The position numbers were made by a program, and so were the translations under genes. Of a stretch of 15,833 nt of DNA, positions 4,195 to 14,326 are shown piece after piece (position 1 is the first letter of the stretch; each line of letters opens with the position of its first letter). Below the pieces are notes generated by a model. The model searched no databases, had not been told where the DNA came from, and saw nothing but the letters and a program-made list of their open reading frames with translations. The stretch spans positions 1 to 15,833 of the forward strand of contig JAJQHT010000149.1 of NCBI GenBank assembly GCA_021199595.1. The letters run 5' to 3'. This stretch comes from Oscillospiraceae bacterium. Its GTDB lineage: Bacteria > Bacillota > Clostridia > Oscillospirales > Oscillospiraceae.

Positions 4195-4215
4195 GGAATA
4201 AAATCCTTTTATTCC
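4195..4215 (-). other. AT-rich hairpin over the stop codon of the small gene
   Basis: A perfect 9-bp inverted repeat ggaataaaa/ttttattcc with a 3-base loop covers the TAA stop (4209-4211). It has no following U-run, so it is more likely an RNA 3'-end or stability element than a complete terminator; its role is unknown. Confidence 0.35.
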
Positions 4216-4574
4216 TGAACCTCTGCGGTCTCAGGTTCGGCAGGGGATTCCTCGGCGGCAGCCTCTACAGGCTCGGCAGCGGGTTCTGCGGCAGCCTCAG
4301 GGGCGGAAGCCTCGGCGGGCGCGGCCTCATCAAATACAACCAGGTCGTCCTCGACCTCCTTGCCGGCGTTTTCATCGATGTGCAGCACATTCATGGCCTT
4401 TTTCTTCGCCTTCCGCCAGGCCACACCGATGACCGCACCGGCCACAACCACCACGCCTACAACGGCCTGAATCGCAAAGGTCGTGACAGAGGGGTCAACA
4501 TAGGAGGCGCACGCAGGCACCATCAGCAGCAGGGCAAAGCAGAGCGTGTAAAAGACAGTCCGAATCGTTTTCAA
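4209..4574 (-). CDS. Small single-pass membrane protein with acidic Ala/Glu/Pro tail
   Basis: A 121-residue protein of unknown function. Residues 1-23 look like a signal peptide (MKTIRT, then a hydrophobic core to VPACA). C22 could be a lipidation site, but proline at -2 is not a good lipobox. A short YVDPSV segment leads into a hydrophobic span (about 33-53), then a basic stop-transfer patch RKAKKKA (54-60), a segment with HIDENAGKEVEDDLVVFD, and a low-complexity tail rich in Ala, Glu and Pro (84-121). This predicts an N-out, C-in topology. The start is TTG at 4574, because AAGGA (4582-4586) lies 7 bases before it and no ATG or GTG is suitably placed. It follows licC by 115 bases and has its own promoter. 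I recall similar YxDPSV-type small proteins in clostridia but cannot name a family. Confidence 0.7.
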   Translation of the reverse strand: MKTIRTVFYTLCFALLLMVPACASYVDPSVTTFAIQAVVGVVVVAGAVIGVAWRKAKKKAMNVLHIDENAGKEVEDDLVVFDEAAPAEASAPEAAAEPAAEPVEAAAEESPAEPETAEVQE

Positions 4575-4689: not shown

Positions 4690-5469
4690 TCAGGTCACAT
4701 AGGTTTTATCCAGCGCCTTCAGCTCATCCAGCGTATCTATCTCCTGAATGTCTGAAAAGACACAGGGGCGGACGCGAACAGTATAATGGTCGTGAAAGAT
4801 ATTAAGTGGAACGGCCTCAAAAAATGCCTGACGATTTTCCTCCCGCTGGAAGGCAGCGGGGAGATCCTCCCCCAGGCGGCGGCCGTCCTCTTCTGACCAG
4901 TAGGAGACGCCGAACATATGCCAGCAGTCATCCCCGCCCTTTTGGACGCACTGGATAACCCCGTCCTTTACGGGAAAGCACCAATCGTCCGTGTGAGCCA
5001 CCGGTACGCCCAGGAAGTTTGATCTGTATTGATATTTACTGATAAGACCGGGATTTTGCAGCAACAGGTCAGCCTCGAACACATAAGCGTTTTGCAGGTA
5101 CTCCGACGCCTGGAGAATGGAGGAGATGTTGTTTGTCTCGTCATAGAGTGGGTTTTCAATAAACTGTATCATGGGATACTCTTCCAGCAGCGAATTAAAC
5201 GCCTCCCCCATATAGCCCCGGACAAGATATATCTCCTCTATCCCGGCAGCCAGCACCGCATCCAGCAACGACGCTATGATGGGACGTCCGAACACAGGAA
5301 TCAGGGGCTTGGGGGTCGTCAACGTCAGCGGCGCGAGACGGCTGCCGAAGCCCGCCGCCATAAACACAGCCCGCCTGGCGCGGTATGGCTCCAGTGCGGC
5401 CAGCTCCGCCGCCGTGGCAATCCCCTGCCGTTCTTTTGCTGCCAGGGCATTAAACTCCTGTTCCGTCAT
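4690..5469 (-). CDS. licC: LicC-like CTP:phosphocholine cytidylyltransferase
   Basis: A 259-residue cytoplasmic nucleotidyltransferase. The hallmark AAGFGSRLAPLTLTTPKPLI (38-57) is the nucleotide-binding loop of the sugar-phosphate/choline-phosphate nucleotidyltransferase fold. The acidic FEADLLL (131-137) and FSDIQEIDTLDEL (238-250) fit the two metal-binding positions, and ENPLYDETNNISSI (105-118) is typical of LicC-type rather than sugar-type enzymes. The expected reaction is CTP plus phosphocholine to CDP-choline. About 33 residues precede the catalytic fold, an extension possibly left from a helix-turn-helix seen in some clostridial relatives. The start ATG overlaps the licA stop (ATGA, 5466-5469) and GGAGG lies 7 bases before it, so the two are translationally coupled. 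The licA partner makes phosphocholine the likely substrate, though phosphoethanolamine is possible. Confidence 0.85.
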   Translation of the reverse strand: MTEQEFNALAAKERQGIATAAELAALEPYRARRAVFMAAGFGSRLAPLTLTTPKPLIPVFGRPIIASLLDAVLAAGIEEIYLVRGYMGEAFNSLLEEYPMIQFIENPLYDETNNISSILQASEYLQNAYVFEADLLLQNPGLISKYQYRSNFLGVPVAHTDDWCFPVKDGVIQCVQKGGDDCWHMFGVSYWSEEDGRRLGEDLPAAFQREENRQAFFEAVPLNIFHDHYTVRVRPCVFSDIQEIDTLDELKALDKTYVT

Positions 5470-6374
5470 ACCTTTCCCTCCTGGAAAAGCCGGTCAAGGC
5501 TCTCCCTTGCGTATCGGACGCCAAGCTGGGCGTAATCCTGATAAAAAGCCCGATCCTGCGGTTCCATCTTTGTTTTGAATACCGACCAGGTGCCCCACAT
5601 GATAGCGGCACTGGCGCACATAGCAAACAGCTTTCTGCGCTCCGCCGATGTGGACGGCCTCTCTAAATACAGCTCCAGCAAATGAACGCACGCCTCCGCC
5701 GGTAAATCTCCATCGTGGCAAAAATCCCCCAAATCCTCCATGGGGTCGCTGATGCTCGCGTATTCCCAGTCAATCAGCACCGGCTCCCGTCCATGCGGAA
5801 ACAGAAAGTTATGGGGCAAACAGTCTCCATGGACAAGCTGGATCTGACTGCCGTCGCCATAATAGGCCGGGCATACAGACAGCACCCGCTCCCGCACGGG
5901 CCAATATTCAGCAGGGTAAAACGACTCTCCCTCCACGTCCTTCACCCATTGGATGTAATACTCCATCCTGTCCAGGGCAGTGTTCTGCCGTTCACCCTTT
6001 ATTTTCAAGCCATGAAAGCGTCGTAGCAGGGCCATCCCCCGGCGCAGCTCCCCCTCGTCGGCGGTATTTATCACATGACTATCTGGGTAATACACCGTCA
6101 CACGAATGCCGGTGTCCGGCTCAAAATAGCATACCTCGTCGGTAATATGCTCGTCCTTCAGCCGAGCATACAGTGCACACTCCGCGCGGCGGTCACAGAA
6201 CATCTCCGTTCCCCGCCCGGGCAGGCGAAGCATATAGTCCCCCACCGTGGTGCGGAACACATAGGTATCGTTTGTGATGCCCCGCCCCGGGTTATTGTAC
6301 GCCTCCAAAATCTGCTCCTGACGCAGATTCATGGCCTGAAGGAATATTTCCGTTGTCCTCTCATCCACTGGCAT
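5466..6374 (-). CDS. licA: LicA-like choline kinase
   Basis: A 302-residue kinase of the choline/ethanolamine kinase and APH fold, expected to phosphorylate choline with ATP in the cytoplasm as the first step of surface phosphocholine synthesis. The N-terminal nucleotide loop is around GRGITNDTYVF (30-40), and YMLRLPGRGTE (47-57) carries the strand-3 region. The catalytic Brenner-type motif is VHGDCLPHN (181-189; D184 and N189), and the metal-binding motif is LIDWEYASISDP (200-211; D202). Length matches LicA. The ATG at 6374 has AAGGA about 10 bases upstream, slightly long but the best site. It lies 18 bases after the amidohydrolase stop and overlaps licC by 4 bases. Ethanolamine or another amino alcohol cannot be excluded as substrate. 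Confidence 0.87.
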   Translation of the reverse strand: MPVDERTTEIFLQAMNLRQEQILEAYNNPGRGITNDTYVFRTTVGDYMLRLPGRGTEMFCDRRAECALYARLKDEHITDEVCYFEPDTGIRVTVYYPDSHVINTADEGELRRGMALLRRFHGLKIKGERQNTALDRMEYYIQWVKDVEGESFYPAEYWPVRERVLSVCPAYYGDGSQIQLVHGDCLPHNFLFPHGREPVLIDWEYASISDPMEDLGDFCHDGDLPAEACVHLLELYLERPSTSAERRKLFAMCASAAIMWGTWSVFKTKMEPQDRAFYQDYAQLGVRYARESLDRLFQEGKV

Positions 6375-6392: not shown

Positions 6393-7969
6393 TCATATAA
6401 ACGCCCGGCGGAAAAGCCGGTTGTGGACACTGCAGCGAAGAAGCCCCATCACACCTGGCGTTTTGCCGTCGTATTTTTTCCCGGCAAGATACAGCGCCTG
6501 AATCTGAATAGCCCGAATATCCGGTGCGGTCAGCGGGTCATCGCTCAAAACCACAAAGTCCGCAATCTTTCCTTCCGTCAAGCTGCCCCGCTCATGCTCG
6601 TCAAAGCTCATATAGGCCGGGTTGTAGGTTATCATTCGCAGCGCATCCAGCCGCTCCATCCGCGCCTCTGCGTCGGGGTGAGAAACAGCGTTCGCCATGG
6701 CTGCCAGAGGATTCGGCATGGTGCATGGGCCGTCCGACCCATCCCCCATTACCACGCCCCGGCGCTGGAGCTGTCCCAAGGGATTTAAGGCCCCGGCCCG
6801 CTCCGGGCCGAGTATCCTGTCCAGATATTCCTGAGGCTCCTGCTTCCAGAAGATAAAGGGCGACTGCACCGCCACGCACAGCTTCAGGCTTGCGATACGG
6901 TCAAGCTGTTCAGGCGTGGCCATGCAGCAGTGTATCAGCACATGACGGGCATCCTCCCTCGGATAATCCGCCATCGCGGCCTCATAGGCTGTGACTGCCT
7001 GCTCCACCGCACGGTCTCCAATGGCGTGCATGGCAATCTGCAGGCCCATGCGATTCGCGCGAATGACAAAGTCGTTTATCTCCTCCTGGCTATAATACAG
7101 AACCCCGACATTATTGGGGTCGTTCGCATAGGGGCTTGTCAGGGCCGCATCCTCTGAACCAAAGCAGCCATCCAGCGCGAGCTTAAAGCAGCCGCCCACA
7201 CGGGGGAACTTCCGCTTTTTCACAGCCTCCAAATCCATGGTCTGAAAAATATGCGATACGCCTGAGGCAGACCAGGGGCAAGAATATTTATCATGTCCAC
7301 ATCCAAATCGCCGGTGTAGCCCACGCCCTCAACATTATGGACAAGGCCAATCCCCACGTCCGCCAGCGCCTTCGCCCCTTTGGAAAGGCCCCGCACCACG
7401 TCCAGGATAGGTATTTTTGCCGTTACCTCGTTCACGCCCTTATAAAAGGCGTTCTGATACAGCCAGCCGCTCTCTCCGTCATAGCCGGGGTCGGTTTTCA
7501 CCTCGTCCGTCAGCAGGGACAGCATGGCGCTGTTGCAAACGGCGGCATGGCCGTCATACTTCACCACCATAAGAGGCCGGTCTGTCCAGCTGTCCATATC
7601 GGCCCGCTCCGGCAGACGCCCCTCCCGAACTGTATGGGCGGAGCAGCCATAGCCCATCAGCACCTTGGCCCTGGGATGGGCGTCCGCGTAAGCCCGCACG
7701 ATGGCCGCGTCCTCCTCAAAGCTCTCTGCATCCATGAGATAGAAAGTCTGCTGGAAGGTGGCAAAGGACTCAAAATGGATATGTGTGTCTGCAAAGGCTG
7801 GCGTCACTGCCGCCCCCTGAAGGTCAACGACCCTAGCTCTCTGACATGATGTCGGCAGATCTTCCTGGCTGCCAACCCATACAATGCGGCCCTTATCCAC
7901 CGCCATGGCGGAAAAAAATCTGTTTTCCGGCTCGCAGGAAATAAACCTGGCGTTTTTATATACAACCAT
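6393..7969 (-). pseudogene. YtcJ-like amidohydrolase (Amidohydro_3) split by a one-base frameshift
   Basis: Two abutting frames together make one metal-dependent amidohydrolase of about 525 residues, close to YtcJ length. The N-terminal part (stop at 7220) carries the metal-binding ADTHIHFES; the C-terminal part carries the remaining ligand motifs, MHAIGD, HVLIHCCM and GDGSDGP. The join lies at a run of five A (7245-7249; T5 in the coding strand). One more base there restores a continuous IFFQTMDLEAV. The start is taken as the ATG at 7969 because GGGGAGGG lies 6 bases before it; upstream in-frame ATGs at 7999/7996 have no comparable site. It lies 38 bases after the fusion-gene stop and 18 before licA, so it belongs to the same operon. 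The substrate is unknown; the family hydrolyses C-N bonds in amides or cyclic compounds. It may be a true inactive allele, a sequencing error, or less likely a recoded gene. Confidence 0.85.
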
Positions 7970-8007
7970 GCCTGACCCTCCCCTCGGAAACTCCATCAAG
8001 ATTAAAA

Positions 8008-9813
8008 TTACAGTTTTATTTTTTCCAGCGCCTGATACAGCGCCTCATTGTCCGCCTCATCCCGGACGGCCACGCGGATGAAACTCGCTCCGCCGAAGCC
8101 GTTTTTGGTGGACAGGTCTTTGATAAGCAGATTATCGTCCCGCAGAAGACGGTTTGCAAGCTCCTTGGAGCCAATGCCCTCCACACGGCACATAATATAG
8201 TTCGCCTGGGACGGATAGGGCGTCAGGAAGGGGTATGCTCCCAACCGCTCCTTCATTTTTTCCCGCTGGCGGACGATTTTGTTGCAGGCAGTTCTGTACT
8301 CCCCGCTGTAAAGGCCTACAATCTGGAAGAAATATTCCCCAAAGGAGTTGATATTCCAGATGGGCAGCAGTCCGCGGAGCTGCTCCATCCAAGCCGTGTT
8401 GCCGCTGGCGGCCACGCCCAGACGCAGCCCCGGCACTCCGTAGGATTTGCTAATGCTCTTAATGACCATCAGGTTCGGATATGCATCCAAAATATCGTTA
8501 TCCAGCAGCGTAAAGCGCAGCGGCGCTTCCGCAAAGTCCACAAAGGACTCGTCCACCACAAAGGTCGTGCCATGCTCCCGGCAGATGTCGGCCAGCTCCA
8601 ATATTTCCTCGCGCTTCAAAAAGCTGCCGCTGGGGTTATCGGGATTGATGATGACAAGATTATCCATCTCCGCCGCTGCTTTGCGAAGGGCGGACATATC
8701 AAACTGGAAGCCATAGTCTTCGGCCTGGATGGGAACGATCTCGCAGTCCGGGAAGCAGCGGACATATTCGTTGAAAGCAGGAATAGAAAGGCCCGTCCGG
8801 CCCCGCATGGTGCGGCCCAGGGTGTTGATAAGCTCCGCCGCCCCGTTCCCAACCAGGACAAGCTCATCCCGAATACCGAACATCTTGCCCGCCATCAGTT
8901 TTTGCACAAACATCCCGGACGGGTAGCTGGTCAAAAGCTGGGAATAGGAATACTGCATCTGCTCCAGCATTTTCTTCGGGGGAAAATAGGGATTCACCAG
9001 ATAACAGAAGTCCTTCAGCCCGTCAAACCGCCAATAGCCGCCGAAGTGCAGCTCGTAGGCGTGGAGCCTGTCCTCATCTCTGGCAAAAATAGTATTGGCG
9101 ATGTCCAAATCCTGCACATCGTCTATCTCGTACCATTTCAAATCGCCCATCTTAAAGGCCCGCAGGCCGGCAAACGGCAGATGGGCCAGGGCTTTCAGCA
9201 CCATTTCATAATACTGGTTGGCCCCATATGCCTGGAGATAGGACATCATGAACGGCACATACTGCCGGGTGGAAAACTCCCGGCTGAATTTATACACGTT
9301 CACGGTTTTATAGTAGGTGTCCGCGCTGGCAAAGCTGAAATCCTTTTTCTCGATAAACTCCCGGATAAGGCCGTCCTCGTCCACCAGGGTAACGGTGCCG
9401 TCCATCCACTGCTCGTACTTCGCCACGGCCACCATGTTCGGCTCCGGGGCCTCCACCAGGCGGCGTATCAGGCTGGGATCATATATCAGGTCAGATTCCA
9501 GCAGGACGGTATCATCCGCCATCAGCTCCTCCCGCGCCAGATACAGAGAATAAATATTATTCGTGGTGGCATAGTCCGGGTTTTCCACAAAGACAAGGTC
9601 AAAGTCGCTGAGCTTTTCCCGGGCGAACGCCTTCAGCTTCTCCCCCTCATAGCCCACCACAATGACAAAACGCCGGATGCCCGCCTGGCGTAGGGCCTCT
9701 GCCGCGTGCTCCAGGAGAGTATAGCCCCCCACCTTCACCATGCACTTGGTCTGGTTGTTCGTATAGGCCCCCAGGCGCTTTCCCATCCCGGCAGCCAGCA
9801 TCAATGCCTGCAT
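8008..9813 (-). CDS. Fusion: LicC-like nucleotidyltransferase + class I/II PLP-dependent aminotransferase-fold enzyme
   Basis: A 601-residue two-domain cytoplasmic protein. Residues 1 to about 245 form a nucleotidyltransferase: LAAGMGKRL (6-14), TKCMVKVGG (22-30), ENPDYATTNNIYSLY (77-91), ESDLI (106-110) and YEIDDVQDLDIA (228-239) supply the nucleotide loop and metal acids. Residues about 255-601 form a fold-type I PLP enzyme resembling HisC/CobD: NPDNPSG (390-396), VVDESF (419-424; D421), the PLP lysine in KSISKSYGVPGLRLG (452-466; K456), and the substrate-carboxylate arginine region SFIRVAVR (577-584; R580). The NTP domain likely makes a CDP- or NDP-linked compound; the PLP domain could be a transaminase or, as in CobD, a decarboxylase of a phospho-amino acid. 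The ATG has AGAGGA 7 bases upstream, 12 bases after the GNAT stop. Domain calls are firm, substrates are inference. Confidence 0.9.
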   Translation of the reverse strand: MQALMLAAGMGKRLGAYTNNQTKCMVKVGGYTLLEHAAEALRQAGIRRFVIVVGYEGEKLKAFAREKLSDFDLVFVENPDYATTNNIYSLYLAREELMADDTVLLESDLIYDPSLIRRLVEAPEPNMVAVAKYEQWMDGTVTLVDEDGLIREFIEKKDFSFASADTYYKTVNVYKFSREFSTRQYVPFMMSYLQAYGANQYYEMVLKALAHLPFAGLRAFKMGDLKWYEIDDVQDLDIANTIFARDEDRLHAYELHFGGYWRFDGLKDFCYLVNPYFPPKKMLEQMQYSYSQLLTSYPSGMFVQKLMAGKMFGIRDELVLVGNGAAELINTLGRTMRGRTGLSIPAFNEYVRCFPDCEIVPIQAEDYGFQFDMSALRKAAAEMDNLVIINPDNPSGSFLKREEILELADICREHGTTFVVDESFVDFAEAPLRFTLLDNDILDAYPNLMVIKSISKSYGVPGLRLGVAASGNTAWMEQLRGLLPIWNINSFGEYFFQIVGLYSGEYRTACNKIVRQREKMKERLGAYPFLTPYPSQANYIMCRVEGIGSKELANRLLRDDNLLIKDLSTKNGFGGASFIRVAVRDEADNEALYQALEKIKL

Positions 9814-9825
9814 AATAAAATCCTC

Positions 9826-10623
9826 TCAGTCCTCTCGAAGTAACCGGGCGTACAGACCCAGGAAGTCATAGCCCATCTTGTGATGCAGGGACAGGGTGTT
9901 CTCGTTGTCAGCGCCCAAATAGGCGAGCCCCCGCTTTCCCTCCGTCAGCACCAGATTCCATGTGCTTGCAGTAATGGCCCGGCCAAGGCCGTGTCCGCGC
10001 ATTTCCGTGTCCGTAACGAGGCCGCTGATAACCGCAAGCTCCTCCGTCTCCGCGCTGGTGGCGTTGGTGGCTACAAGACGTCCCTCTGGCTCCCGCATGA
10101 CGAACAGACGGCCAAAGCCGCTGTCAATGCGGTTTTCCAGCTGCTCGCACAGACTCTCATAGGTGTACACGGAGTTATAGATAGGCTCCTTCATCATCAG
10201 CCGGGCAATCTCCGGCACATCCGACTTCCCCGCCTGCTGGACGGACAGATCGGATTTCCCGTCCATCAGCTTATCCGTTGTGATAATGTGGCTCAGCTCA
10301 TAGGCGTATGTATCCTTCGTCTTTCCCTTCAACGGGTCGATGCTCCGCTGCTCTCCTGTAACGCACTTGGGGTGCAGCTGCTCAATCATGGCCAGCGCCT
10401 CCCGCTGGGGAAACACGTCCCGGCTATAGAGGTGTAGGGTGTCAAAATAGCGGTACATGACTCCGTCTATCCGATCGCCCTCCCCACACATCCAAAGGCC
10501 CACATCCGGCCCCTGGGCGCCGTATTCCTTCATGTCCATATACAGGTAAAAGCACTTGTACTTATCCTCGCCAATGTAATCTATCACCTGGGGGATATAT
10601 GAGTTATCACATTGAATCATCAT
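9826..10623 (-). CDS. GNAT-family N-acetyltransferase
   Basis: A 265-residue protein whose C-terminal half is a GNAT fold: GLVTDTEMRGHGLGRAITA (201-219) holds the acetyl-CoA-binding motif A (RGHGLG, 209-214), and GADNENTLSLHHKMGYDFLG (237-256) is motif B. The first roughly 125 residues form a distinct domain with no motif I recognise (YKCFYLYMDMKEYG, LWMCGEGDRIDGVMY); it looks like the degenerate N-terminal half of a tandem GNAT. The frame is open 53 codons further upstream inside the preceding gene, but that stretch is basic and unlike a protein start. The ATG pair at 10623/10620 follows the preceding stop by 4 bases, suggesting translational coupling; no strong Shine-Dalgarno is seen. It may acetylate an amino group on a precursor or intermediate of the cluster product; the acceptor is unknown. 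Confidence 0.85.
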   Translation of the reverse strand: MMIQCDNSYIPQVIDYIGEDKYKCFYLYMDMKEYGAQGPDVGLWMCGEGDRIDGVMYRYFDTLHLYSRDVFPQREALAMIEQLHPKCVTGEQRSIDPLKGKTKDTYAYELSHIITTDKLMDGKSDLSVQQAGKSDVPEIARLMMKEPIYNSVYTYESLCEQLENRIDSGFGRLFVMREPEGRLVATNATSAETEELAVISGLVTDTEMRGHGLGRAITASTWNLVLTEGKRGLAYLGADNENTLSLHHKMGYDFLGLYARLLRED

Positions 10624-10627
10624 CGCT

Positions 10628-12529
10628 TTATTTCCCGTTTTGTTCGTCCTTTGCCTTTTTTTGATTTTCCACCATGCGGCCGATGAGATAATCTGCCGCA
10701 TACTTTCCGCTCTCGCCGAAGTGATAGAGCTTCTCCTGCCGGACAGCCTCCAGCGTTTCCGCGTAGGCAGCCCGGTTTTCAATCATATCCAGCGCCGCAG
10801 CAGCCGCCTTTTCCCGCACTTCATCCAGCTCAAGCGCCGCGCCCATCACTGCCCGGAGCTTTGCATCCGGGGCGCAGCGGGCAATGTCCTCGTCCGTCCA
10901 GGCCTCATTAACTCGCTTCATGGGCGTATTGATGTAAAGCACCGGCTTTTTGGTCGCCAGCGCGTATTCACAGCCAATGTTTGACCAGTCGGTCACCAGA
11001 ATATCCGAGGAGAACACTGTCTCGTTGGAGCTGAAATTGAGCTGGAAGCGGAAGCGTTCCTTGTCGTACCCCTCACAGTCGTGGATAAGCTTTTCAAGCC
11101 GCTGGGGGAAGCGGCGAATGTACTGCGGATGGGGCCGAACGGTCACGTCAAAGCCCGCCGCCAACAGCGGCTCCGCCAAGTCCGCAAGGCAACTGTCCAG
11201 GATATTATCCTCCTGCCAGGAGGGGGCGATAAGCACCGTTTTCACGGGATTTTCATGCTTTTCCATACGGTCATATTCCGCCGCCATGTTGTCAATAACG
11301 CCATAGCCGCAGGGTATCATTTTCTGGTCCGGCAGGCCCATTTTTTCATTCCAGCCGCGCATCTCCACCTCGAAGCCGGGGGTGGGCGTCAGCAGGGTGT
11401 CGAAATGGTCAAGCGCTCCCTTCCGCAGCGTCACCAATCCGGAGAATATGCCGTGGAACATATAAACATATTCCACGTCCTTGCGCACATAGCTGCGCTT
11501 AAAGTGGTAGGTGTCCAGATCCGGCATGGTCATCACCACGATGTCCGCGTCCATCTTCATGAACAGGGTAATCATCCGCCGTTCGCCAATATAATAGGGC
11601 TGAATGCGCGGTTCCTTTTCCGCAAGGGCAAATATCTGGTCGTCCGGGTCGCTGGTGACGTAGTTTATCACCACGTTCGTCCGGGCCAGCAGCTCCTCAA
11701 TGGTATTCTGAAAATACTTATAAAATCCGCTGGCCTCGGAATAGAACACCAGCCGCTTGTTGGCCACATGGAAAAAGTGCTTGTAATCTGCTTTTTCCCG
11801 CTTTTTCAGCTCCTTGGTCTGGGTCTGGCCGAACTGATCCAGCGCCTCCAGCTCCTTCCGGCTGGCCTCCAGCTCCTCATAGTCCACATACTTCTTCGGC
11901 GGCATGATGGCGTTGCAGGCAAGCTGCACCAGAATAGAAAAGAGATTACTGTATATCCAGTACAGCGCCACGCCGGTGGAAACAAACACACCCAGTACCA
12001 GCGAAATGCCCACAGACACCCCATTGGAGGAGAGCTGCTCGGCTTTACTCTGCTCCCGCTGAAGGGGATTGATGTGGTTTTGCGCGAAGCTCAGCACCAC
12101 TGCCGCAAGTCCAGCGCCCAGCGGCATGAGCCACGTCCAGCCCCCATCCGTCATCGGGATAAGGCCCAGGGCCGGAGCCGCGCCGGTATCCGTCACCGAA
12201 TGGATGACGCCAATCATCCCCAAAAGGATGATGATTTGAATAATCAGCGGAACGGTACTCAGCAGGGGCCGGTAGTGCTTTTCCTTATACAGGGCGGCCT
12301 GCTCGTCGCCGATTTTTTCCCGGTCTCCGTAATACTGTACCTTAATGCGGTTCAGCTCCGGCATTAGGGCCACCATTTTCAGGCCGTTGCGGTTCGTCCA
12401 CAGGGACACAGGCATGAGAATGATTTTGGTCAGCAGGGTAAACAGGGCAATAGCCACCACATAATTCGGCACGATGGCATAGCACAGATCCATCACATAG
12501 CCGAATATTTTCGCCAGAAAATCAATCAT
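10628..12529 (-). CDS. Fusion: YidC/Oxa1-like membrane domain + CDP-glycerol glycerophosphotransferase domain
   Basis: A 633-residue membrane enzyme with two recognisable parts. Residues 1 to about 210 resemble Gram-positive YidC2: a hydrophobic segment with a single charged residue in the groove position (LLTKIILMPVSL, K35, where YidC2 proteins have Arg), a cytoplasmic hairpin (about 45-90), then segments near 92-110, 131-150 and 171-208 ending in the YidC-type VALYWIYSNLFSILVQL (187-203). No signal peptide or lipobox is seen. A charged linker (214-250) leads to a TagB/TagF-type transferase: FHGIFSG (358-364), LIAPSWQED (433-441), VRPHPQ (464-469) and the family signature LVTDWSNIGCEYALATKKPV (511-530). 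That domain transfers glycerol phosphate (or related phospho-alcohols) from a CDP donor to a polymer. The gene begins 27 bases after the sulfatase-like stop, with AGGAGG somewhat far (15 bases) and GAGAG nearer. The YidC part may anchor or feed the transferase. Confidence 0.9.
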   Translation of the reverse strand: MIDFLAKIFGYVMDLCYAIVPNYVVAIALFTLLTKIILMPVSLWTNRNGLKMVALMPELNRIKVQYYGDREKIGDEQAALYKEKHYRPLLSTVPLIIQIIILLGMIGVIHSVTDTGAAPALGLIPMTDGGWTWLMPLGAGLAAVVLSFAQNHINPLQREQSKAEQLSSNGVSVGISLVLGVFVSTGVALYWIYSNLFSILVQLACNAIMPPKKYVDYEELEASRKELEALDQFGQTQTKELKKREKADYKHFFHVANKRLVFYSEASGFYKYFQNTIEELLARTNVVINYVTSDPDDQIFALAEKEPRIQPYYIGERRMITLFMKMDADIVVMTMPDLDTYHFKRSYVRKDVEYVYMFHGIFSGLVTLRKGALDHFDTLLTPTPGFEVEMRGWNEKMGLPDQKMIPCGYGVIDNMAAEYDRMEKHENPVKTVLIAPSWQEDNILDSCLADLAEPLLAAGFDVTVRPHPQYIRRFPQRLEKLIHDCEGYDKERFRFQLNFSSNETVFSSDILVTDWSNIGCEYALATKKPVLYINTPMKRVNEAWTDEDIARCAPDAKLRAVMGAALELDEVREKAAAAALDMIENRAAYAETLEAVRQEKLYHFGESGKYAADYLIGRMVENQKKAKDEQNGK

Positions 12530-12556: not shown

Positions 12557-14326
12557 TCAATAGAAGGAGTCGTACAGCGGCTCGATAGCGTCGGCCACGC
12601 CGTACAGGTACCAGTAGCGTTCTTCCTCATAAATGGTGTCCCGGTCGCCGATATAGTTGAACACGCCGAACACGTTATAGCGGTAGGAGCCGTTGGCCTG
12701 GGCGTCCCACTGGTTCAGGTTGCCGACCCAGTCCACCTCCGGGTAAGACCGCATATAGCCCCACACGCGGGTCGTCCGCTCCCGGACGTCTCCCTCCTCC
12801 CAGTCGAAGACGGTGGTGCCGTAGTCGCTGTAATCCTCGCCCAGGGCATACAGAATGGTGGGCATAATGTCCTCCTGGGCCACAGGCGCGCTTGTGACCT
12901 GCATTTCCTCAAACTCCTGGCCGGGCATTTTGATAAGGAACGCTGCCTGGAAGCACTCGAAATAGCCGTGGTCGGCGGAGATGATGATGGTGGCGTCGTC
13001 ATAGATGCCCTGCTCCTTCATCTGCTCCAAAAATTCGCCGACGGCCAGCAGATAGCCGTGGAGCTGGCTCATGCGGTCAGTCTCGTCCTCGTCGCACAGA
13101 TAGCCGTCATAGTCCACCACATAGGGGAAGTGGGCGCCCTGAAGGTGGTACCAGCTAAAGATCTTGGTGTCGTCCGTCAGGCTGATGCGCTCCTCCTGAA
13201 GCTCGGTGTAGAAGTCATAGTTGATGTGCAGCTTTTCCACGCCCTGATACTGGGCCACGTCCACAATGCCGCCGGTGGAGACGTAGAAATCATTTTTCAG
13301 CATGGTGGGCAGATAGCGGTATAGGGACATGTACACCACATTTTCCAGCAGCTCCCCTGTCACCACCAGGTCTCCCGCCACAGCAATGTTATCCACCTTG
13401 CCCAGCATATTCTCCGTGTCGATTGCCGCGTAGTTAGACTCCAGATAGAGATTCACCGTGTACCCGTTGTCGTGGAGAGTGTCATAGAAATTGTTCGCCA
13501 GGTCGCTGTGCCAGGCGTTATACACCGCCTCCACGGTGGGGATGGTGGTGTCGAAATACTGATGGGTCAGCAGATAGCACAGGGACGGGAAGGTGAAGGA
13601 ATAGCAGGAGGACATATTATCGTAGTAAATGAAATCCTGGAAAAAATCCGCCAGCGTGGGATCCTCCTCCAGCGCCTCCTCAAAAATCAGGGGGGAGAAC
13701 TGGTCAAGGGTAATAACGATGATATTCTCATCCGATGACAGCACAAACTCATCGTCCCCCGCGAGCTGATAGTTGATGGCGTCCGGGTCCTCTGCCTGCC
13801 AGGTAGTCACCAGACTGACAGCCTGGGCCAGCACCAGCGCGGCGCAGAGGATATAACCCGCCGTGCGGTATGCGCCATGCAAAAACCATCCGGCTATCAC
13901 AATGACCACCAGGGCCACAGCCCACACGGCAATGTTTACATACGCGGCCTGGGCATCATCATGCCAATCGAAGCCAGAGCCATCCAGTACCGCCAGCTCG
14001 CCGTTCAGCAGAACGCCCTGGAGATAAAACAGCACAGCAACACCCAGCAGAAGGGCATAAACAATGCGCTGAGCCTTTCCGGGGACAAAAGCAAGCACAG
14101 CGGACAGAAGCGCCGTCGCTCCGACCGTTACCCCAGCCAGAGACCAGAACAACGTTCCCGCCGAAAAAGTCAGATATGCCTGGTTTGAGTTTACAATGTC
14201 CAGCGGGCCAAAGAACAGCCCAGTAAAGCACAGCAGAAAGGCCGGCGCCAGCAGCCCCAGGAATCGGTGGAGCCAGTTTTTCCAGTAGTCTTTGCCGGAC
14301 ACGGCCTTCGTCTTATGTTCTTCCAT
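12557..14326 (-). CDS. LTA-synthase/sulfatase-like membrane phosphotransferase
   Basis: A 589-residue protein of the alkaline phosphatase superfamily. Hydrophobic segments at about 21-40, 52-80, 87-108, 131-149 and 155-175 resemble the five-pass N-terminus of LtaS-type enzymes, and the rest is an extracellular catalytic domain. Visible catalytic features: NIIVITLDQF (201-210; metal ligand D208), SFTFPS (243-248; likely nucleophile T245), HLQGAHFPYVVD (394-405; H394 or H399) and IISADHGYF (448-456; D452 and H453). There is no sulfatase C/S-x-P-x-R motif, so a phospho-group transferase (glycerol phosphate, phosphocholine or phosphoethanolamine) is more likely than a sulfatase. The ATG has a strong AGGAGG but with a 12-base spacer; no closer in-frame start exists. 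It is the first gene of the leftward operon. Confidence 0.87.
   Translation of the reverse strand: MEEHKTKAVSGKDYWKNWLHRFLGLLAPAFLLCFTGLFFGPLDIVNSNQAYLTFSAGTLFWSLAGVTVGATALLSAVLAFVPGKAQRIVYALLLGVAVLFYLQGVLLNGELAVLDGSGFDWHDDAQAAYVNIAVWAVALVVIVIAGWFLHGAYRTAGYILCAALVLAQAVSLVTTWQAEDPDAINYQLAGDDEFVLSSDENIIVITLDQFSPLIFEEALEEDPTLADFFQDFIYYDNMSSCYSFTFPSLCYLLTHQYFDTTIPTVEAVYNAWHSDLANNFYDTLHDNGYTVNLYLESNYAAIDTENMLGKVDNIAVAGDLVVTGELLENVVYMSLYRYLPTMLKNDFYVSTGGIVDVAQYQGVEKLHINYDFYTELQEERISLTDDTKIFSWYHLQGAHFPYVVDYDGYLCDEDETDRMSQLHGYLLAVGEFLEQMKEQGIYDDATIIISADHGYFECFQAAFLIKMPGQEFEEMQVTSAPVAQEDIMPTILYALGEDYSDYGTTVFDWEEGDVRERTTRVWGYMRSYPEVDWVGNLNQWDAQANGSYRYNVFGVFNYIGDRDTIYEEERYWYLYGVADAIEPLYDSFY

Follow-up and report, generated by a model that had tools for sequence, protein, structure and literature searches.

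A YidC/Oxa1-fold domain fused to a TagF-type transferase in an Oscillospiraceae bacterium, with neighbours that point to cell-surface tailoring

The fusion gene and its surroundings

The window analysed here, the whole 15,833 nucleotides of contig JAJQHT010000149.1 from Oscillospiraceae bacterium GCA_021199595.1, carries on its reverse strand a gene (10628..12529, -) in which a YidC/Oxa1-fold membrane domain precedes a TagF/TarL-type transferase domain. An LtaS-like enzyme of the alkaline phosphatase superfamily (AP) is encoded 27 bp upstream of it (12557..14326, -). This protein matches PF00884 (4.6e-8; 33.2 bits against a cut-off of 25) and PF01663 (1.8e-6), and its hydropathy profile indicates five hydrophobic segments followed by an extracytosolic domain. 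Its matches to the LtaP and LtaS structures are weak (E 0.0076-0.024) and it scores below the LtaS equivalog cut-off (NF053595, 23.6 bits versus 970). Directly downstream of the fusion gene lies a GNAT-type acyltransferase gene (9826..10623, -; PF08445, PF00583), whose open reading frame extends to 10782 and whose ATG at 10623 agrees with its relatives; a GNAT gene occupies this +1 position in 11 loci, the window included. The following gene (8008..9813, -) encodes a LicC-like cytidylyltransferase (PF12804, 2.2e-17) fused to a CobD-like PLP decarboxylase, which matches TIGR01140 at 7e-53 yet with 179.9 bits stays below the cut-off of 290.55. Its matches in the PDB comprise the threonine-phosphate decarboxylase-like 6oux (1.4e-39) and the CTP:phosphocholine cytidylyltransferase 1jyk (8.1e-14), and its product is probably CDP-ethanolamine or a related CDP-amino alcohol. 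Such a protein could by itself convert a phospho-amino acid into a CDP-amino alcohol, and it differs from the nucleotidyltransferase-AEP transaminase fusion found at locus L018.

Further along the same strand, an amidohydrolase gene (6393-7999, -) is split over two overlapping frames, 7220-7999 and 6393-7238, with the Amidohydro_3 match in the downstream part. The near relative L007 has a single 525-residue open reading frame at the same position in the gene order, and the split in the window reflects either a frameshift or an assembly error. The cluster continues with a choline/ethanolamine-kinase-like (LicA-like) protein (5466..6374, -; PF01636 2e-17, PF01633 4e-10), a second, LicC/PntC-like nucleotidyltransferase (4690..5469, -; PF00483 2.2e-11, PF12804 4.4e-10) and a small membrane protein with a Y[IV]DPS motif (4209..4574, -), which starts like a signal peptide, contains one more membrane segment, ends in a basic tail and has no match in Pfam or NCBIfam. 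Members of this YVDPS family are membrane proteins of about 100 residues in which Y-x-D-P-S is invariant in the 15 sequences aligned. They occur either free or fused to AP, and 19 of the 40 proteins matching the YVDPS piece are AP proteins.

The sequence-only reading of the fusion gene had described a YidC2-like domain followed by a TagB/TagF-type transferase, and both the order and the motifs that it named were borne out by domain searches, a predicted model and alignment to structures; residues 1-210 match the YidC fold. Both folds are established by prediction. The YidC domain (residues 1-208; 11906..12529, -) passes the cut-offs of PF02096 (103.4 bits, cut-off 35) and TIGR03592 (91.5 bits, cut-off 84.3) and is predicted to comprise an amphipathic helix (2-19), the five membrane helices of the YidC/Oxa1 core and a cytosolic helical hairpin (39-83). 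Its groove carries lysine K35, which aligns with an arginine of YidC2 3wo7, and position 35 is basic in 96/96 fusions (K in 93, R in 3). Conservation extends to N48, Q98, Y190, W191 and N195, each present in 96/96, and to a cytosolic loop between helices 3 and 4 at about 150-160 (Q150, N154, Q157, E159, Q160), where Q157, E159 and Q160 are likewise found in 96/96. In the set compared with housekeeping YidC proteins these three residues were present in 51/51 fusions, and no pattern at 157-160 was shared among the 20 housekeeping copies. One group of fusions (L067, L068, L072-L074, L077, L079, L082 and L088-L093) has 685-719 residues and carries an insert of about 60-80 residues between the second and third membrane helices, which YidC topology would place on the outer side.

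A linker (residues 209-250; 11780..11905, -), delimited from the predicted model and alignments, is mostly helical and rich in both K/R and D/E, with ten of each in residues 207-250. It leads into the transferase domain (residues 251-633 plus stop; 10628..11779, -), which is predicted to adopt the GT-B fold of TagF and passes the PF04464 (Glyphos_transf) cut-off (28.8 bits versus 22.1) with a match that spans only 130 residues. The motifs H359, RPHP (465-468) and DWS (514-516) are invariant, and H359 and H467, conserved across 96 fusions, presumably correspond to the catalytic pair of TagF. The top structural match of the domain is TagF with bound CDP-glycerol. A search for the LicD domain PF04991 gave no match in the fusion at E 0.01. 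Mean entropy is 1.14 bits in the N-lobe (251-400) and 1.65 bits in the C-lobe (401-560); the higher conservation of the N-lobe fits a shared acceptor combined with varied donors. In the model of the whole protein (pTM 0.72) the placement of the YidC domain relative to the transferase domain is not firmly defined.

Distribution of the fusion and permutations of its parts

A database search with the fusion protein returned matches at E 1e-3 or better for 6631 of 7999 scored proteins, and both Pfam domains are present in 113 of the 120 matches listed. The architecture is thus already visible in database domain lists, in which the named entries are called membrane protein insertase YidC or YidC/Oxa1 family. 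Scanning one genome per species yielded 403 relatives, of which the best 80 were kept; their record titles refer to Oscillospiraceae, Lachnospiraceae, Christensenellaceae, Coriobacteriia, Victivallales/Lentisphaerae and one Planctomycetia-labelled bin. All ten nearest species-level loci (L004-L013) carry the gene in fused form, so that the fusion does occur in close relatives, and it was found in only 1/25 other genomes of the same family in the order sample (G282), which is a thin signal. Its distribution is patchy: 12/295 genomes of the order sample, own genome included, and 6/393 genomes of the class sample (completeness 90, E 1e-40), in which the five besides that of the window are intact frames.

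We considered whether the gene is an assembly chimera and rejected this, since the same two-domain architecture occurs in database proteins and in loci of other species; the earlier claim that the join shows no frameshift and is not an obvious assembly artefact is upheld, the frame being single and intact. A broken or recent fusion was rejected too, because in the YidC-domain tree 51 transferase-fused domains form one clade with support of 100/100; a long branch sets this clade off from the 20 housekeeping copies. Carriage on plasmids was likewise rejected: a tblastn search of 72,556 plasmid records returned five, in each of which the match was confined to 31-32% of the query, at its YidC end.

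The genome itself (1.67 Mb, 64.9% complete) contains a second yidC match, a separate gene on contig C183 preceded by frames that we read by eye as rnpA and yidD. The separate housekeeping yidC whose presence had been raised by the sequence-only reading was thus found. The fusion gene lies outside the rnpA-yidD-yidC setting and does not qualify as the housekeeping copy, of which it is a paralogue. No further PF04464 match was detected in the assembled part of this genome.

The YidC domain, the transferase and the AP are joined in at least three permutations, and the YVDPS piece adds a fourth arrangement. As in the window, a YidC-transferase fusion may be accompanied by a separate AP. In nine genomes of the order sample a relative of the transferase occurs alone, as a protein of some 415 residues that has a single YIDPG helix at its N-terminus; in eight of these nine it adjoins a gene for a large protein with AP as its best match, and in the ninth the contig ends. 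Three of the eight AP neighbours were scanned and 3/3 begin with 60KD_IMP (E 3.5e-22, 3.7e-20 and 6.5e-23), followed by a sulfatase match just below the Pfam cut-off of 25 (22.5, 23.3 and 22.9 bits); in the YidC tree the remaining five fall together with these three. For this YidC-AP form the database search found 4634 relatives, and the precomputed domain list for the 120 matches listed gives PF02096 in 120/120 and PF00884 in 68/120. At locus L060 the AP, YidC and transferase domains are found in a single 1200-residue chain, and a search with this protein gave 39 chains of at least 1185 residues among the 120 matches listed, and in 19 of these the three Pfam domains are all present. In Coriobacteriia, finally, the YVDPS piece lies inside AP proteins (19 proteins, 12 loci). 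The small YVDPS protein also resembles the YIDPG helix of the free transferases, with an hhalign probability of 86.4 and P 4.7e-6 that are only suggestive.

Parts that are joined differently in different genomes usually act together. These varied permutations are therefore our strongest evidence that the YidC fold, the transferase and the AP probably form one machine. The groove lysine is replaced by N in 22/22 AP-fused YidC domains, so the groove need not work alike in the two YidC forms. In an AU test a joint clade of transferase-fused and AP-fused YidC domains was not rejected (p 0.343), a result compatible with one recruitment of YidC as well as with separate recruitments to the transferase and to the AP.

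Neighbouring genes and the donor

Neighbourhoods were compared in 89 loci (the window included) with 90 fusions, after calling and clustering of open reading frames. Excluded from the counts were L001-L003 and L084, which belong to the own genome, and L004, which is 99% identical; L085-L093 have flanks of about 1.5 kb, and L080 and L087 encode an identical protein. Gene counts are based on exemplar searches with thresholds that we set ourselves. AP is the commonest recognised neighbour, present in 61/89 loci, and lies directly upstream of the fusion in 36, with a gap within 100 bp in 31 of these; the AP counts are lower bounds, as clusters 13 and 24, upstream of the fusion in L020, L024 and L025, were left uncounted. 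Two proteins from these clusters, both from L025, had no Pfam match when scanned. By eye, cluster 13 reads like a member of the AP superfamily.

Across the same loci the phosphonate genes comprise PEP mutase (25 loci), phosphonopyruvate decarboxylase (Ppd; 22) and AEP transaminase (15). NTP-transferases were counted in 51 loci, the small YVDPS protein in 32, copies inside AP included, CobD-like enzymes in 13, GNAT proteins in 11, iron alcohol dehydrogenases in 8, choline kinases in 5 and solute-binding proteins in 3. Representatives pass the NCBIfam cut-offs for PEP mutase (two), phosphonopyruvate decarboxylase (one) and the 2-aminoethylphosphonate aminotransferase AepZ (two). The window belongs to the CobD type of locus. 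In L077 an NTP-transferase is followed by a solute-binding protein, an ABC ATPase and a permease, and in L037 and L095 a nucleotidyltransferase domain and a choline-kinase domain are united in a double protein. Two side observations concern single loci: in L026 (6781-11878) two divergent YidC-transferase genes flank a phage-type integrase gene, and in L057 (1947-7004) a 1044-residue LicD-family protein is encoded directly upstream of the YidC-transferase gene.

By chance, about 0.08 of the 89 loci would be expected to have PEP mutase within 22 kb, an estimate based on its presence in 38/393 genomes and on assumed genomes of 2.5 Mb. In the order sample, 6/12 fusion genomes have PEP mutase above the cut-off, compared with 3/52 genomes that have a strong ordinary PF04464 gene (best E under 1e-20) and no fusion (p 8e-4), where genomes and loci are related and this and the following p-values are indicative only. 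Among the 231 other genomes, a group that includes weaker PF04464 matches, nine have PEP mutase, so that no link with ordinary PF04464 genes is seen (3/52 versus 9/231, p 0.47). The class sample gave 4/6 fusion genomes versus 34/387 (p 9.8e-4). In several fusion genomes PEP mutase lies on another contig than the fusion. Where only the free-standing transferase relative occurs, PEP mutase was present in 1/7 order-sample genomes and in 3/3 class-sample cases. Mapped onto a quickly built fusion tree, the three donor types require six changes (46/90 rows typed), and each donor label alone needs at least three gains or losses on well supported branches. The donor types are therefore not carried by one inherited island.

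In all, the neighbourhoods lend contextual support to a donor other than CDP-glycerol and favour other CMP/CDP-activated groups. The earlier label of a CDP-glycerol glycerophosphotransferase accordingly finds no support: the neighbouring genes make CMP/CDP-activated phosphonates, choline and ethanolamine-like groups, and PEP mutase co-occurs with the fusion and not with ordinary PF04464 genes. Weighing against this donor assignment, 44/90 fusion rows have no PEP mutase, Ppd, CobD, choline-kinase or solute-binding marker nearby, some of them near contig ends or with flanks of about 1.5 kb, and PEP mutase was found neither in the own genome (64.9% complete) nor in 6/12 fusion genomes of the order sample, besides its presence in only 1/7 order-sample genomes that have a free-standing relative and no fusion.

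A possible role and comparison with known systems

We propose, with confidence that is evenly balanced, that the fusion is the membrane-embedded head-group transferase of a cell-surface tailoring machine, in which the YidC fold would handle the acceptor or carry the product across the membrane. The cytosolic TagF-type domain would use a CMP/CDP-activated donor and take over its small head group. In the window this donor would probably be CDP-ethanolamine, a related amino alcohol or CDP-choline, and in relatives CMP-aminoethylphosphonate, CMP-hydroxyethylphosphonate or CDP-choline. The head group would be placed on a membrane-held acceptor, presumably a lipid or lipid-linked polymer, held at the membrane by the YidC-fold domain. 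More speculatively, the same domain might allow the headgroup lipid, once made, to reach the outer face, for use by the AP encoded next door. The genomic context supports the donor class and the joint action of the three parts. Since the YidC fold sets the orientation of the protein, the transferase would lie on the cytosolic side, where its CMP/CDP donors are found, and the AP, to judge from its superfamily and from the five hydrophobic segments that precede its domain, acts outside; with the AP outside, the transferase inside and YidC joined to either, holding an acceptor and passing a product would be the simplest common task. The sequence-only reading had suggested that YidC was repurposed for a polymer, a lipid carrier or an LtaS-like partner. 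This gains support from the AP, which is the most frequent recognised neighbour and elsewhere is fused to YidC or to YidC plus transferase; in sum its observation is confirmed and its interpretation is partly supported.

The YidC domain might instead be a mere anchor or scaffold that keeps the transferase near the membrane and the AP, with nothing moving through it. This is possible, if somewhat doubtful: the free-standing transferases manage with just one N-terminal Y-I-D-P-G helix, and the loosely defined arrangement of the two domains (pTM 0.72) would suit an anchor, yet anchoring does not need a whole groove, and K35, N48, Q98, Y190, W191, N195, Q157, E159 and Q160 are all conserved. Moreover, the AP neighbours of these lone transferases carry YidC themselves (seen in the three of eight scanned, with which the other five cluster), so the machine seems to keep its YidC domain.

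We regard it as unlikely that the domain has remained a protein insertase with a dedicated partner, for instance the small YVDPS protein or the AP. YidC clients are often small membrane proteins, such a protein is a frequent neighbour (32/89 loci, AP-fused copies counted) and the fusions retain the groove lysine. Against this, the transferase occupies the place of the tail after the last helix, which binds ribosomes in some YidC proteins; the loop residues Q157, E159 and Q160 are fixed in the fusions and follow no common pattern in the housekeeping copies; the YVDPS piece of Coriobacteriia is part of AP proteins; and the own genome retains a separate yidC. It appears quite improbable that the protein is an ordinary teichoic-acid polymerase with CDP-glycerol as its donor and an incidental membrane anchor: the structural match to TagF with CDP-glycerol and the Pfam label Glyphos_transf speak for it, but the neighbours make other CMP/CDP-activated groups, ordinary PF04464 genes show no PEP mutase link and the PF04464 match covers only 130 residues.

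YidC/Oxa1 proteins are known for the insertion and folding of proteins. Here the fold is tied to two surface-chemistry enzymes by fusion in several permutations, and gene neighbourhoods connect it with phosphonate, choline or ethanolamine-like donor genes, which suggests that a protein-insertion fold was given a new job in cell-surface building. Returning to our proposed head-group transferase, a more specific and tentative version is that the YidC fold came to serve as a lipid translocator or substrate-presenting groove and thereby links the CMP-donor transferase in the cytosol with the extracytosolic AP. Its natural cargo might then be a headgroup lipid and not a protein, and in many gut anaerobes the fusion might supply the transfer step that is missing from surface tailoring with phosphonate, ethanolamine and choline. 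According to a preprint (PMC10491306), purified E. coli YidC robustly scrambled lipids in liposomes, and the Oxa1-family members tested there scrambled lipids in simulation. The fusion offers a compact natural system for asking whether lipid scrambling can be the main task of a YidC-family member. The database labels membrane protein insertase YidC and CDP-glycerol glycerophosphotransferase are probably misleading for the fusion proteins.

Our search of the open-access literature found no account of a YidC-transferase or YidC-sulfatase fusion and no paper printing the motif YIDPGTGS, and the available text of an article on the origin of SecY and YidC (PMC8675477) does not mention the fusion. 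Compared with the YidC/Oxa1/Alb3 insertases (60KD_IMP; B. halodurans YidC2 3wo6/3wo7, E. coli YidC 6al2), the fusion has the same five-helix fold, cytosolic hairpin, basic groove residue and Y-W and N motif in the last helix, but differs by its TagF-type transferase, its own long-branch clade, its setting away from rnpA-yidD and its family-specific loop positions. With the TagF/TarL polymerases (PF04464; 3l7k, 8va1) it shares the GT-B fold, the HP and D-[WY]-S motifs and, as we expect, a donor chemistry in which CMP leaves; it differs by its integral membrane N-terminus, its neighbours that point to amino alcohols and phosphonates, and its PEP mutase link.

The likeness to LicD phosphocholine transferases is an analogy of role, the expected place in the pathway being the same, after a LicC-like cytidylyltransferase. 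The fusion lacks PF04991, and in L057 a LicD protein stands next to it. In the lic pathway a CMP-activated head group is added to a surface glycan or lipid (PMC6697681). In Pnt phosphonyl tailoring PntC performs the CMP activation of AEP, and the steps after C-P bond formation, later phosphonyl tailoring, are called enigmatic in the same paper (Rice et al. 2019, PMC6697681), the main text of which does not contain the words 'insertase', 'sulfatase' or 'glycerophosphotransferase'. Relatives of the fusion adjoin PEP mutase, Ppd, AEP transaminase and nucleotidyltransferases, and we offer the fusion as a candidate for the transfer step that follows CMP activation in phosphonyl tailoring. A further parallel is MprF, a flippase-synthase that modifies lipids and in which a membrane domain is joined to a cytosolic domain altering the lipid head group. 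The folds and the chemistry of MprF differ from those of the fusion; both combine a membrane domain with a cytosolic head-group domain, so that making and moving would be coupled in one protein.
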